The position numbers and the translations under genes are program-made. Positions 14,775 through 18,890 of a DNA stretch of 64,000 nt are shown here, in pieces; position 1 is the first letter of the stretch, and every line of letters begins with the position of its first letter. The stretch spans positions 124,001 to 188,000 of the forward strand of contig CALXYO010000001.1 in the NCBI GenBank assembly GCA_944393005.1, given 5' to 3'. The stretch comes from an uncultured Spirochaetales bacterium. GTDB lineage: Bacteria > Spirochaetota > Spirochaetia > Sphaerochaetales > Sphaerochaetaceae. The notes under the pieces were generated by a model. That model searched no databases, was not told where the DNA came from, and worked only from the letters and a program-made list of their open reading frames with translations.

Positions 14775-14817
14775 AAAAAACAATTCTTTCAGAAGGTCTG
14801 ATCAACAGCCAATCAGA
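14775..14817 (-). terminator. Possible terminator of the ECF transporter operon
   Basis: On the minus strand TCTGAT and ATCAGA pair across the stop codon. A second small TTCT/AGAA hairpin is followed by TTGTTTTTT. The stem is weak, so this is tentative. Confidence 0.35.
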
Positions 14818-17428
14818 ACGGATAGAAGAATTTCACTCCCGTACCGAAACGCAGATAAACAGTCAGTGCTATAAGCGCAGCCATGAAAACAATGAGGATC
14901 CAGTCCGCCGTCCTGAGAGAGTCGGCACGGTACCATGTCCTCTTCCTTTTCTTGCCGAAACCGCGGAGAATCATGGCATTTGTTATTATGTCGATCTTGT
15001 CGATGGAAGAAAGGATGAGCGGAGCAAGGGTCTTTGTGGTTCCGCTGATCCTCTGGCTGAGCTTCGCCTTTCTCGATATCTCGACACCGCGGCATGCCTG
15101 ACTGTCACGTATGTTCGTATAATCCTTCATGATCACGGGAATGTATCTGAATGCAAGACTCACCGCATAGGAAATCTTGTAGCTTATCCTGAGCCTGTTG
15201 AGTGAAGATGCGAATTCACTCGGCTGGGTGCAGTAGATGAACGTGATCGCAATCGGAGAGATCGAGAAATACTTCATAACCACAATCAGAAGATACCAGA
15301 GAGTCTCTGCCGTTGGCGTGTAATGCGTGTCAGGAAGATTGAAGAGAATCGTCCGGCTTCCCATATATTCTGGTCCCTGCTGCGGAGAGAAAAGATATAT
15401 GAAAAGCGCATTGAGCAGCACAGAGAGGAAAACGAATATGAGGATCGGCCTGTATTTTCTTATCGGAACATGACATGTGGCAAGTGTGAGCAGTCCGGCG
15501 ACAAGCGTGACTGACAAGACCCTCACATCAAATGTCATGAGACTCACAAGCAGCCAGGTGATGAGAAGTCCGAACTTAGTCACTCCGTTGAGACGGTGAA
15601 CCCAGCTGTCGGCAGGGAAATACTCAACATCGAATTTGAGCTGCTTGCGCTTTGCCTCCCCTTCTTCCTTCTTCCTGACAACAGGTCTGTCTTTCTGTAT
15701 GACCTTTTCATCAACTACAGCTTCAGCCTCGCCTCTTCTGTGTTTTTCCTCAACAATGAAGGTTTCAATGAAAGATGCGACATCACTTCCTTCCAGACCG
15801 AGCTTGCGGGCAAGAGTGAAGAGAGATGTGACCTTCAGATTGGCACTTCTGAGAAGATCCTCATCGGAGAATATGGTGCTGATCGGAGCATCACACAGAA
15901 GCTGTCCGTCAGCAAGCACGATTGAACGCGGTGTGTATTCAAGTGCAAGATGAAGATCATGGGTCACGAAAAGAATGGTGACACCTGTTTCCCTGTTCAC
16001 TCTGGAAAGGAATGACATCATCGCACTGTAGCGTCTGTAATCCTGACCGGCAGTCGGCTCATCAAGTATGAGGATTTCCGGTTCCATGACAAGGATTGAT
16101 GCGATTGTGACTCTTTTCTTCTGACCGTAGCTCAGTGCGCTGATCGGCCATTTATGATACTGGGCAAGAGAACATAACTTAAGCACATCCATAACCTTCT
16201 CTCTTACAGTATCCTCATCCGCGCCTCTGAGACGGAGACCGAAGGCAACCTCATCATAGATCATGGAATTGCTGATCATGTGATTCGGGTTCTGCATCAC
16301 ATACCCTATTTTCTGGGCTCTTTCAGCAATGCTTTCCCTGCTGGCATCCTTTCCGTCTATGAATATCTGGCCGCTGTCAGGTGAATATATTCCTGTCAAA
16401 ATAGACGCAAGTGTGGATTTCCCGGCACCGTTCTTGCCGAGAATCGAGATCATCTCACCGCGGTGCACGTCAAATGAAATATTGTTGAGCGCATTGCGTC
16501 TGCCGTCATATGAAAAGGATACGTTTCTGAAAGAAAGCGCGGCAGGAGTGTCTTTCTGCTCAAGCTTTCTGCGTTTTGCGCTGAACCATTTCAGCAGATT
16601 GTCCCTGTACGGAGAAATGTCCATGCGCTCTATGCTGTCAAGATTCTCTTCTCCAGACACATCGCAGCCTGCGTTTTTCATCGCAGCCACATACAATGGC
16701 TCTCTTATACCCTTGTCAACAAGGATGCCGGACTGGAGCACATGGGCCGGAGTGTCATCCATGACGATTCTGCCCTCATCGACAAGAACGATCCTGTCGA
16801 TGTCCCTGTGCAGGACGTCTTCAATTCTGTGCTCGATTATTATCACAGTCTTTCCGGTCTGCTTGTGCAGATCATCGATAAGCTCGATGGCAAGCTCGCC
16901 TGTCGCGGGATCAAGTGCGGCAAGAGGCTCATCAAAAAGCAGGATGGAAACATCATCCACAAGCACGCCGGAAAGCGCAACTCTCTGTTTCTGTCCTCCG
17001 GAGAGGTCTTCGGGACTGTTGTCGAGAAAGTCCTGCATTGACACAAGCGAAGCACTCTTCATCACGATTTCATGCATTTTCGCTTTGTCAATGCACTGGT
17101 TCTCAAGGGAAAAGGCAATGTCCTCTCCTACTGTCAGACCGACAAACTGGCTGTCAGTATCCTGAAGGACAGTGCCGACTTCCCTGCTTATTTCGTATAT
17201 ATCACTTTCTTTGGTTTCTACCCCGTTTATTTTCAGGCTCCCTTCAATATGTCCGCCAAGCGAATGGGGAATAAGTCCGTTTATGCAACTGCCGAGAGTT
17301 GATTTGCCGGAGCCGGATGCACCGGCAATGAGGATTTTCTCTCCGTCCCGTATCCTGAGATTTATCTCATGAAGGGTCGGTTTCGTCTGGGACTTGTACT
17401 GAAAGGAAAAGGTAGAAAACTCAATCAT
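14813..17428 (-). CDS. Fused ECF transporter: two ATPase domains plus EcfT transmembrane domain
   Basis: Energy-coupling-factor transporters import vitamins or similar micronutrients using two ATPases (A, A'), a membrane coupler (T) and a substrate-binding S protein. Here A, A' and T are one 871-residue chain. ATPase 1 (about 1-270) has Walker A GASGSGKST, signature LSGGQKQR and Walker B LLFDEP. ATPase 2 (about 295-555) has GKNGAGKST, an altered signature ALSYGQKKR and LILDEP. A charged linker rich in Glu/Lys (about 565-610) leads to a five- or six-helix domain with the EcfT coupling motifs ACRG and LRG. The matching S protein lies 2 nt upstream. The substrate is unknown. Confidence 0.88.
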   Translation of the reverse strand: MIEFSTFSFQYKSQTKPTLHEINLRIRDGEKILIAGASGSGKSTLGSCINGLIPHSLGGHIEGSLKINGVETKESDIYEISREVGTVLQDTDSQFVGLTVGEDIAFSLENQCIDKAKMHEIVMKSASLVSMQDFLDNSPEDLSGGQKQRVALSGVLVDDVSILLFDEPLAALDPATGELAIELIDDLHKQTGKTVIIIEHRIEDVLHRDIDRIVLVDEGRIVMDDTPAHVLQSGILVDKGIREPLYVAAMKNAGCDVSGEENLDSIERMDISPYRDNLLKWFSAKRRKLEQKDTPAALSFRNVSFSYDGRRNALNNISFDVHRGEMISILGKNGAGKSTLASILTGIYSPDSGQIFIDGKDASRESIAERAQKIGYVMQNPNHMISNSMIYDEVAFGLRLRGADEDTVREKVMDVLKLCSLAQYHKWPISALSYGQKKRVTIASILVMEPEILILDEPTAGQDYRRYSAMMSFLSRVNRETGVTILFVTHDLHLALEYTPRSIVLADGQLLCDAPISTIFSDEDLLRSANLKVTSLFTLARKLGLEGSDVASFIETFIVEEKHRRGEAEAVVDEKVIQKDRPVVRKKEEGEAKRKQLKFDVEYFPADSWVHRLNGVTKFGLLITWLLVSLMTFDVRVLSVTLVAGLLTLATCHVPIRKYRPILIFVFLSVLLNALFIYLFSPQQGPEYMGSRTILFNLPDTHYTPTAETLWYLLIVVMKYFSISPIAITFIYCTQPSEFASSLNRLRISYKISYAVSLAFRYIPVIMKDYTNIRDSQACRGVEISRKAKLSQRISGTTKTLAPLILSSIDKIDIITNAMILRGFGKKRKRTWYRADSLRTADWILIVFMAALIALTVYLRFGTGVKFFYPF

Positions 17429-17430
17429 GG

Positions 17431-17991
17431 TTATACGTTGGAATCCTCACTCAGGCTGATACTTGAAGAGAACTTCTTTGCAACAAGAAGCATGAGCGCG
17501 CTGCCGATGATACCCATGACGACTGTGTTGGACACAGTTGTGATCTGCTGCTGTGTAAGGGACTTGAGGAACGGTTCGCCGTATGCGATGACGTCGAATA
17601 CAACAGAAATTCCGTAACCTACGAAGTTTGCGATCAGAGACATTACAGTGAAGATTGCAACCTGCTTGCCGCCGAAAACACCCTGCTCGAGATTCTTCTT
17701 TGTGATGTAAGGATACAGACCCATGAGGCCGCCTACGATTGCAGAGCCGAGAGCCCAGCTGAACCAGATCTGGCCGTATACGAGGTCAGTGATGCAGTGA
17801 CCGATGAAACCCACGAGAATACCTACAACAGGTCCCCACAGAGCTGCGAAGAGACCGAGAATTGCCATTGCCGGCTTGAGATAGGTGTTTGTGAATACAG
17901 GGATTGAGAGGAGACCTCCGAATCCGTACAGAGCTGCACCGATTGCGATGATAACTACGGTCTTCACGTAGTTAATATTCTTTTTTGCCAT
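17431..17991 (-). CDS. ECF transporter S component (substrate-binding membrane protein)
   Basis: The 186-residue protein has about six hydrophobic helices and resembles the UPF0397-like S components, with GGLLSIPVFTNTYLKPAMAI and WGPVVGILVGFIGHCITDLVYG. It would capture the substrate in the membrane and dock on the fused ECF module encoded 2 nt downstream. The start is placed at the ATG at 17989-17991, which has CAGGAGG 8 nt upstream. The longer frame reaching 18042 would overlap the preceding gene and lacks a site. The neighbouring SAM hydrolase hints at a methionine-, SAM- or adenosine-related substrate, but this is inference. Confidence 0.82.
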   Translation of the reverse strand: MAKKNINYVKTVVIIAIGAALYGFGGLLSIPVFTNTYLKPAMAILGLFAALWGPVVGILVGFIGHCITDLVYGQIWFSWALGSAIVGGLMGLYPYITKKNLEQGVFGGKQVAIFTVMSLIANFVGYGISVVFDVIAYGEPFLKSLTQQQITTVSNTVVMGIIGSALMLLVAKKFSSSISLSEDSNV

Positions 17992-18014
17992 ATTTTCATC
18001 CTCCTGAATAAGGC

Positions 18015-18890
18015 TTAGATTTTCTCTAGCTTGATCAGCCATCCCTCTCCCGTGCCGATACGGTATTCGGCTGCGAAGGACCCCTGGTTGATCGCAATGC
18101 CCACACAGAGCAGGCTGTTGATGTATACGAGCGCATCGCCCTTCTCCACTTCCGTGAAGTTCTTGCAGAAACGCAGTGTATAACTGTATACGATTCTCTC
18201 CTCATATGCCAGCGTGACACGGAGCATATCGCCGTAGCTTACACCGAATTCTGTAAGCATTGTGTCCTGGATGTTCGTCCAGAGCGAACCGTAGCGTGTG
18301 TCGAGGATATCGATCGAACCGTATATCGCATTGTCCCTGATAACAGGATCCTGCATGTGCAGGGAGACTGTCTCTCTGCCAAGAAGAGGTCCGACCTCAT
18401 CGAATGTGATTATTCCGGCAGCAAGACGGGCACCTGTATATGCATAAACGTCACGGCCGTGGAATGTATAGCTTCTCTGGCTGTTCTTCAGTCTGTTCTC
18501 GGCTTCGGAGATTCTTCTCACTTCAAGAATGCCGATCTGCTTCGCCAGATGAGTCAGTGTTCCGTTGTCGGGAGTCACGACAATGTGTCCGCTTTTTGTG
18601 AGAACGGCGACGGAAGCCCTGTCGGAGCCCACACCGGGATCGACGACGGAAACGAACACCGTACCGGGTGCCCAGTATGTCATCGCCTGGATGAGGCGGT
18701 AGCTTGCTTCCCAGATATTGAACTGAGGAATCTCATGTGTCAGATCTTCAAGTCTGAGAGAATGATCGACTTCATCGGCAACACCGTGCATCGCGCTCAC
18801 AGCACCGTCAACAGTGCCGAAATCAGACATAAAAACAACAGTACCCCGCTTGATCCAGGGCTTTTCTTCTTTCAATTCTTCAATAGTCAT
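18015..18890 (-). CDS. S-adenosyl-L-methionine hydrolase (SAM hydroxide adenosyltransferase, DUF62 family)
   Basis: The family cleaves SAM with water to adenosine and methionine and is related to the SAM-dependent chlorinase and fluorinase. The 291-residue product has the N-terminal MSDFGTVDGAVSAMHG and the central VFVSVVDPGVGSDRASV, which supplies the family's Asp and Arg. TFHGRDVYAYTGA supplies the His of the Asp-Arg-His triad. It lies 7 nt after ybeY and 23 nt before the ECF S gene, so it is probably co-expressed with the transporter. The hydrolase activity is known for the family; the metabolic reason for the pairing is inferred. Confidence 0.85.
   Translation of the reverse strand: MTIEELKEEKPWIKRGTVVFMSDFGTVDGAVSAMHGVADEVDHSLRLEDLTHEIPQFNIWEASYRLIQAMTYWAPGTVFVSVVDPGVGSDRASVAVLTKSGHIVVTPDNGTLTHLAKQIGILEVRRISEAENRLKNSQRSYTFHGRDVYAYTGARLAAGIITFDEVGPLLGRETVSLHMQDPVIRDNAIYGSIDILDTRYGSLWTNIQDTMLTEFGVSYGDMLRVTLAYEERIVYSYTLRFCKNFTEVEKGDALVYINSLLCVGIAINQGSFAAEYRIGTGEGWLIKLEKI

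Follow-up and report, generated by a model that had tools for sequence, protein, structure and literature searches.

A DUF62 hydrolase gene encoded with a fused ECF transporter in an uncultured spirochaete: a possible module for salvage of S-adenosyl compounds

We analysed a stretch of 64,000 nucleotides (the window) from the genome of an uncultured Spirochaetales bacterium (GenBank assembly GCA_944393005.1, contig CALXYO010000001.1, positions 124,001 to 188,000). On its minus strand lie, head to tail, the genes for a DUF62 S-adenosylmethionine (SAM) hydrolase, for the S component of an energy-coupling factor (ECF) transporter and for a single chain that joins the two ECF ATPases to the transmembrane component EcfT (the A-A'-T fusion). 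An earlier note on this DNA had placed the hydrolase, the S component and an 871-residue fusion at 14813-18890, and this is where all three are found. The genes and domains are as follows.

18015..18890, minus strand: DUF62 (SAM_HAT) hydrolase gene, 291 residues, assigned from Pfam matches, a relative in the PDB and the triad alignment
17431..17991, minus strand: ECF S component, 186 residues from the likely ATG, assigned from PF07155 and an AlphaFold2 model, with the start placed by alignments
14813..17428, minus strand: A-A'-T fusion, 871 residues, assigned from domain matches, both Walker A motifs and both signatures
16709..17425, minus strand: first ATPase domain (approximate), residues 2-240; ECF_ATPase_1 matches residues 2-247
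15779..16537, minus strand: second ATPase domain (approximate), residues 298-550, with the signature LSYGQKKR; ECF_ATPase_2 matches residues 299-551
14942..15607, minus strand: EcfT domain, residues 608-829; PF02361 (CbiQ), E=6.1e-25

The genes are separated by gaps of 23 and 2 nucleotides (nt), the S gene ending 2 nt from the ATG of the fusion, as the earlier note had it. The longest open reading frame (ORF) of the S component has 203 residues, extends to 18042, which places 28 nt of it within the DUF62 gene; the relatives, when aligned, favour the later ATG at 17991, which gives the 186-residue protein and the 23-nt gap. All the components of a group I ECF transporter are encoded together at the locus, as they are in most relatives. 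The host is a gut spirochaete with an assembly of 2.26 Mb in 20 contigs; the closest relatives with a name are uncultured Spirochaetales and Candidatus Aphodenecus pullistercoris.

The gene next to the transporter, which had been read as a DUF62 SAM hydrolase, does carry both domains of that family, SAM_HAT_N (PF01887, E=1.4e-47) and SAM_HAT_C (PF20257, E=2.1e-19), and has a relative of known structure (PDB 2zbu, E=3e-38). In an alignment of 128 DUF62 rows, the window protein has D84, R91 and H144 at the positions that we take to be those of the hydrolase triad, on the basis of the motif and of the published triad description. An Asp-Arg-His triad is reported for the hydrolases, and DUF62 is reported to release adenosine (PMC10491745). 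The triad is intact in 88 of the 100 DUF62 rows at ECF loci, a set in which some genomes are counted twice (as genomes and as named loci); the His is replaced by Tyr or Phe in 10 rows, and two rows lack more of the triad. The window protein is thus a putative hydrolase, judged by its sequence. The fluorinase and the chlorinase are homologous to DUF62, and the enzyme might accordingly act as a halogenase or run towards synthesis, with SAM or a halo-nucleoside as its product; the apparently intact hydrolase triad, in the window protein as in most rows at ECF loci, speaks against such a role, which we regard as highly improbable.

The S component matches PF07155 (E=3.8e-33), and its AlphaFold2 model, with a mean predicted local distance difference test score (pLDDT) of 91.9, adopts the ECF S fold. 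The best PDB matches of the model are tied, ThiT (4tkr; Z 16.7, root mean square deviation (r.m.s.d.) of 3.3 over 169 residues) and chain S of 4hzu (Z 16.6, r.m.s.d. 2.6 over 155), and the top 22 rows of the VIA-align search, with Z from 9.7 to 16.7, are all ECF S components or transition-metal ones of the NikM/CbiM type. When the single sequence was searched against the PDB, two chance-level rows only were obtained, while the profile of the family found RibU (3p5n, E=4e-5) as its sole sequence match. RibU is also a structural neighbour (Z up to 14.7, r.m.s.d. 3.2 over 156), and the NCBI model NF010182, named 'ECF-type riboflavin transporter substrate-binding protein', gives the protein a score of 170.1 (cut-off 99). 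That the protein transports riboflavin, as this name would have it, is nonetheless very improbable: a flavin mononucleotide (FMN) riboswitch was found by Rfam neither at the 42 loci scanned (see below) nor in the window, the methionine control and the DUF62 linkage described below have no known riboflavin tie and, as weak evidence, ThiT and 4hzu chain S stand about 2 Z units above RibU. The NCBI name of the family looks wrong.

Nine residues of the S component (T36, H65, D69, W76, W79, D133, E139, Q147 and N155) are kept in 51-56 of 56 rows. In S components of known structure the substrate is bound by loops 1, 3 and 5, and it is in or near these loops that most of the conserved residues lie, the pocket being judged from the topology of the model alone. 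The three acids and two tryptophans would suit a cation such as a sulfonium, which is suggestive only. An S branch of the Erysipelotrichia type, found at multi-DUF62 loci (L030, L064, L083, L102 and L160), has Thr and Gly in place of D133 and E139, and its substrate may differ, to go by these substitutions.

In the fusion, Pfam recognises two ABC_tran domains, DUF3744 and, at residues 608-829, the transmembrane component CbiQ/EcfT (PF02361), and the chain passes the NCBIfam cut-offs for both ECF_ATPase_1 and ECF_ATPase_2 (TIGR04520 and TIGR04521). The earlier note had taken the three-domain architecture and the SYGQKKR signature of the second ATPase as unusual. The first of these views holds for EcfT only: two ATPases in one chain without EcfT are the family norm, being present in 48 of 67 homologues (some of them truncated by contig ends), so that the novelty of the chain is the addition of EcfT to a double ATPase, and its individual components are of already known kinds. 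As for the signature, LSYGQKKR is truly present, but it is no oddity: a second signature was found in 66 of the 67 fused or split homologues (again with some genomes counted twice), in every one of the form [LIV]S[YF]GQ[KR]KR, the exception being the split ORF of L081. Walker A and signature motifs are intact in both ATPase domains of the fusion, and an inactive second ATPase is ruled out by the family-wide signature together with the intact Walker A.

Among the loci examined, the A-A'-T fusion is confined to Spirochaetota, with 16 different sequences among 79 homologues. In a quick tree the fused rows belong to one clade of 17 rows, with a support of 99 in the Shimodaira-Hasegawa-like approximate likelihood ratio test (SH-aLRT), whose sole unfused row (L056) is truncated by a contig end; in the sister branch (L059, L060 and L162) and in the remaining relatives, EcfT is encoded separately. 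From these sequences, the fusion looks like a variant of single origin, produced by a lineage-specific joining of genes that were already adjacent. Its use as a functional clue is ruled out: fused and split forms occupy the same operon context and the signature is family-wide, so that neither feature is informative on the substrate.

Our survey of DUF62 in other genomes covered the best 80 of at least 588 confirmed candidate loci, a set that favours the DUF62 branch of the window; linkage was counted on six frames and defined as ECF genes within 3 kb of DUF62. ECF genes are present at 55 of the 80 loci, 39 from Bacillota and 16 from Spirochaetota, and at 51 of them they comprise an S component, a double ATPase and EcfT (hereafter S-AA-T). 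Twenty loci lack ECF genes despite at least 4 kb of visible flank on each side, and five are too short to judge; the nine Bacteroidota loci are lone in eight cases and too short in one. Across 392 Spirochaetota genomes, DUF62 is present in 101 and a strong S match in 66; of the 28 genomes that combine them, 25 have the two within 10 kb of each other. Here a strong S is a PF07155 match with E below 1e-20 (84 matches in the 66 genomes), a cut-off that was set after viewing the list; at E<=1e-3, 136 genomes have some match. Conversely, 58 of the 84 strong matches lie more than 10 kb from any DUF62.

Within the genus, DUF62 and the S family occur in 12 of 16 genomes, the same 12 for both, nine with the fused and three with the split form. 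In the three split-form genomes the S component is 37-38% identical and DUF62 66-68% identical, which indicates partly separate histories of genes that yet stay together. The operon also includes, in most of the genus, ybeY, an HD-domain gene and a phoH-like gene. These three lie on the same strand upstream of DUF62 in the window, with ybeY 7 nt off, and downstream of the fusion, after 188 nt, follow genes for GAPDH, PGK and TPI (all names read from translations). Operon genes in the genus, the survey and the spirochaete regions were called with a simple greedy ORF caller that missed some genes; the labels of L074, L089 and L113 as lacking DUF62 are such misses, and L033 stops at a contig end. 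The presence of ybeY, HD-domain and phoH-like genes, with no obvious link to the others, might suggest that hydrolase and transporter are neighbours by chance, which is hardly credible for a pair that recurs in two phyla with varied flanks, gene order and copy number. The co-occurrence survey that the earlier note had called for thus reveals a conserved neighbourhood.

The number of DUF62 genes also varies with the transporter. Two to six copies are present at 21 of the 55 transporter-linked loci against 0 of the 20 lone loci (Fisher p 8e-4, uncorrected for the relatedness of the loci), and a tree of 132 rows separates a second DUF62 subfamily (17 rows, SH-aLRT 99) that consists exclusively of extra copies at multi-copy ECF loci, hosted by Lachnospiraceae, other Clostridia and spirochaetes. 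We infer from this multiplication beside the importer that the enzymes would act on the imported compound. Nine Spirochaetota genomes have two DUF62 matches, and in seven of them the copies lie beside the S gene; the other two (G290 and G171) are considered below. Beside a single ECF operon, six genes are present in an Erysipelotrichaceae metagenome-assembled genome (L064, 2646-10831) and five in a spirochaete (L030, 8002-15573). Each of these two loci has one very divergent copy, with most of the triad gone, that may differ in function.

Rfam was run on 40 DUF62 loci and then on those of Listeria monocytogenes and of a plasmid of Enterococcus faecium, 42 in all, with the order Bacillales assigned from record names. 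Of the 16 Bacillales loci, 11 have a T-box upstream of DUF62, with 61-291 nt between its end and the DUF62 match, against 0 of the 24 other loci among the 40; S-AA-T follows in six of the T-box-bearing Bacillales loci and no ECF genes in five. A T-box also precedes DUF62 in L. monocytogenes and on the E. faecium plasmid. The specifier, located by the rule 'codon, six bases, GAG', is AUG (Met) in all 11 Bacillales leaders and, by reading, in the two others, hence in 13 of 13. The rule often gave more than one site, and the choice then fell on the site at the expected place in the leader; a second site was present in 3 of the 11 DUF62 leaders. It was tested on T-boxes of one such genome, with the amino acid named from the translations of downstream genes: of the 17 other matches, 11 served as controls, five were removed by the motif filter and one was unused. 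The rule was right in 7 of the 11 (Tyr, Leu, Arg, Ala, Cys, Ile and ProC); for Phe it was one base off, for Val and Thr it took the wrong site, and for ProB it gave no site.

A SAM riboswitch precedes the S gene of L064, the operon with six DUF62 genes. Relatives of the module thus show methionine T-box or SAM riboswitch control, as is the case for methionine-regulated ECF systems, whereas the window itself has neither. The MtsT family of S components was reportedly predicted by Rodionov et al. in 2009 to serve methionine supply, from methionine T-boxes or SAM riboswitches. The methionine T-boxes and the one SAM riboswitch support a methionine- or SAM-related substrate. Of the methionine-, SAM- or adenosine-derived compounds that had been proposed from the letters of the window, the first two kinds are thereby strengthened, and the third has no support of its own. 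In a separate case (L117, 11021-13936), a SAM riboswitch lies just downstream of a T-box-controlled DUF62 gene, before genes that resemble those of sulfate assimilation (cysH, sat and cysC by reading).

The Listeria DUF62 gene, whose T-box reads AUG, is located between fdhF and mdrT, the latter presumably lmo2588. This neighbourhood makes it likely that the gene is lmo2587. A Met T-box has been listed before lmo2587, a 'Met related cytosolic hypothetical' (Wels et al. 2008, PMC2494555), so that lmo2587 and the window hydrolase probably belong to the same gene family. Unlike the window locus, the 10.9-kb Listeria stretch with DUF62 shows no ECF genes in its gene table, which may be incomplete.

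The metabolic setting is compatible with a need for such a supply. The host genome has metK and a MetQ-family lipoprotein and no match to the methionine synthase families PF02574 and PF01717; across the 16 genus genomes, 15 lack PF02574, all 16 lack PF01717, and all 16 have the MetQ-family lipoprotein, these absences being provisional at stated completeness of 62-98%. Lacking a synthase-family match, the host cell would need external methionine, for which SAM could serve by way of DUF62 alone, while a precursor that has first to pass through methionine synthase would bring the cell little. The MetQ lipoprotein points to a separate ABC importer that already serves free methionine. SAM auxotrophy as the reason for import is ruled out, since the host has metK and so do all 22 of the spirochaete genomes tested for it (the G340 match being partial, at a contig end).

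Taken together, these data lead us to a tentative proposal, to which we give somewhat less than an even chance: that SAM or a closely related S-adenosyl sulfonium enters by the ECF importer and is split by DUF62 into methionine and adenosine. The three genes would form a methionine-salvage module with a dedicated importer of the group I type, whose substrate would be SAM or an S-adenosyl sulfonium close to it; in the case of SAM, the biologically inactive (R,S) epimer would probably be accepted too. Outside the cell the substrate would be bound by the S component, which would topple on docking to the A-A'-T unit, ATP hydrolysis would free the substrate inside the cell, and the DUF62 enzyme would hydrolyse it to methionine and adenosine. 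Both the substrate and the direction of transport are what we infer from the data above. SAM import and hydrolysis would account for the gene linkage, the methionine control, the extra DUF62 copies and the missing methionine synthase. A wider and still more tentative extension is that serving an importer of SAM, or of its (R,S) epimer as scrap, is the physiological role of this DUF62 branch, and that the second subfamily, arisen in the operons, handles the other epimer or a related adenosyl sulfonium; this we consider possible, with the balance tilting against it.

Several observations weigh against SAM import. Ten Bacillales genomes have DUF62 without a strong S, five of them with a methionine T-box, which implies a part for DUF62 in methionine supply that does not depend on this importer. 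G290 carries a tandem DUF62 pair (L177 7196-8949, G290:C38) with no such S, AA or T gene within about 7 kb, its strong S sitting on another contig, and in G171 the two DUF62 genes lie on separate contigs, with no ECF genes in the stretches read; these two genomes shifted some weight from SAM import to the import of methionine or a simple derivative. Ten spirochaete regions with strong S matches, from genomes that lack DUF62, were read (L146-L155), and all are S-AA-T operons; seven S rows from DUF62-less operons share the conserved residues of the family, and metK is present in 18 of the 18 genomes tested among the 38 that have a strong S and no DUF62. The module is missing in four of the 16 genus members, three of which also lack the synthase families. 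Finally, a SAM riboswitch stands at the operon in just 1 of 40 loci, and the Rfam scan of the window found no known RNA element. The promoter scan (19, shuffled mean 13.5) and the terminator scan (11, shuffled mean 9.7) were uninformative.

Some of these observations would fit if the importer took up methionine or a simple derivative such as methionine sulfoxide or S-methylmethionine, with DUF62 recovering methionine from internal SAM or (R,S)-SAM and the genes being neighbours because both belong to one methionine-starvation response. The lone DUF62 genes with a methionine T-box, at five Bacillales loci in genomes without this S family, the DUF62-less S-AA-T operons and the G290 pair away from ECF genes all point in this direction. 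The position of metK does so as well: it lies 18 nt upstream of the DUF62-less S-AA-T operon of L152 (5862-7646), which fits methionine import equally, and faces the operon, converging on T, in L028, L029 and L032 (= L055). Ten genes beside DUF62-less S-AA-T operons have no shared theme, and one of them is metK. On the other hand, the MetQ-family lipoprotein is already there in all 16 genus genomes examined, DUF62 has multiplied chiefly at transporter loci, an outcome not expected from recycling of internal SAM, and the best-conserved positions of S include several acidic or aromatic ones. Methionine import is a serious alternative, although on balance we find it doubtful.

A nucleoside or a corrinoid (adenosine, 5'-deoxyadenosine or a cobamide precursor) is an improbable substrate, for which DUF62 would act on a related adenosyl compound. 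Such a cargo could be envisaged from the release of adenosine by DUF62 (PMC10491745) and from a Sphaerochaeta locus (L054), where the module lies downstream of a cobamide-remodelling cluster (CbiR, CobU and CobS) and of the ThrH gene that follows this cluster. However, CobS-like neighbours are limited to four related loci, and none of the 42 loci scanned has a cobalamin or purine riboswitch, the control seen being that of methionine T-boxes or a SAM riboswitch.

When SAM import is compared with characterized systems, the closest parallel on the transporter side is YkoEDC, a group I ECF transporter in which a dedicated S component, a double ATPase and T are likewise encoded together and the ATPase pair is fused in YkoD, as described in PMC5037267. 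The window system differs in the fusion of EcfT to the double ATPase and in an S component of PF07155, and the thiamine riboswitch of YkoEDC has its counterpart in the methionine T-box or SAM riboswitch of the relatives. On the enzyme side, the window protein shares both Pfam domains and the hydrolase triad with StDUF62, an (R,S)-SAM hydrolase; the abstract, introduction and discussion of that account mention no transporter (PMC12120602), and the genomic context presented here suggests one. No paper joining DUF62 to ECF transport was found in a full-text literature search, whose coverage excludes most subscription papers; the most pertinent earlier entry was the Listeria T-box of PMC2494555. 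The role of DUF62 is described as open in a 2025 paper, and the link to an importer, the control by methionine starvation in some lineages and the multiplication of DUF62, mainly beside the importer, provide a candidate answer, namely that DUF62 may draw its substrate from outside the cell. Import of SAM would, if real, add sulfonium cofactors to the known ECF substrates and correct the 'riboflavin transporter' name that the S family has in NCBI models.

The DUF62-S-AA-T operon is also present on two E. faecium plasmids, L175 (NZ_CP064407.1, 423-10005) and L176 (NZ_CP034950.1, 481-4446), typed one as conjugative and one as mobilizable, and in both it lies near IS1216 and other insertion sequence copies. 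In L175, typed conjugative, the operon is placed between IS1216 copies and close to mmuM and to an amino acid permease gene with its own T-box. The operon may therefore move between gut bacteria.

At several spirochaete loci the gene next upstream of DUF62 encodes ThrH (phosphoserine phosphatase/homoserine phosphotransferase), the ThrH genes being located as follows.

L027, 9739-10461: ThrH gene next to DUF62
L028, 9582-10193: ThrH gene next to DUF62
L054, 9158-9763: ThrH gene next to DUF62

The host genome encodes a second PF07155 S component at G000:C8:23846-24310 (in L156), which is surrounded by weaker matches to ECF ATPase and T models.

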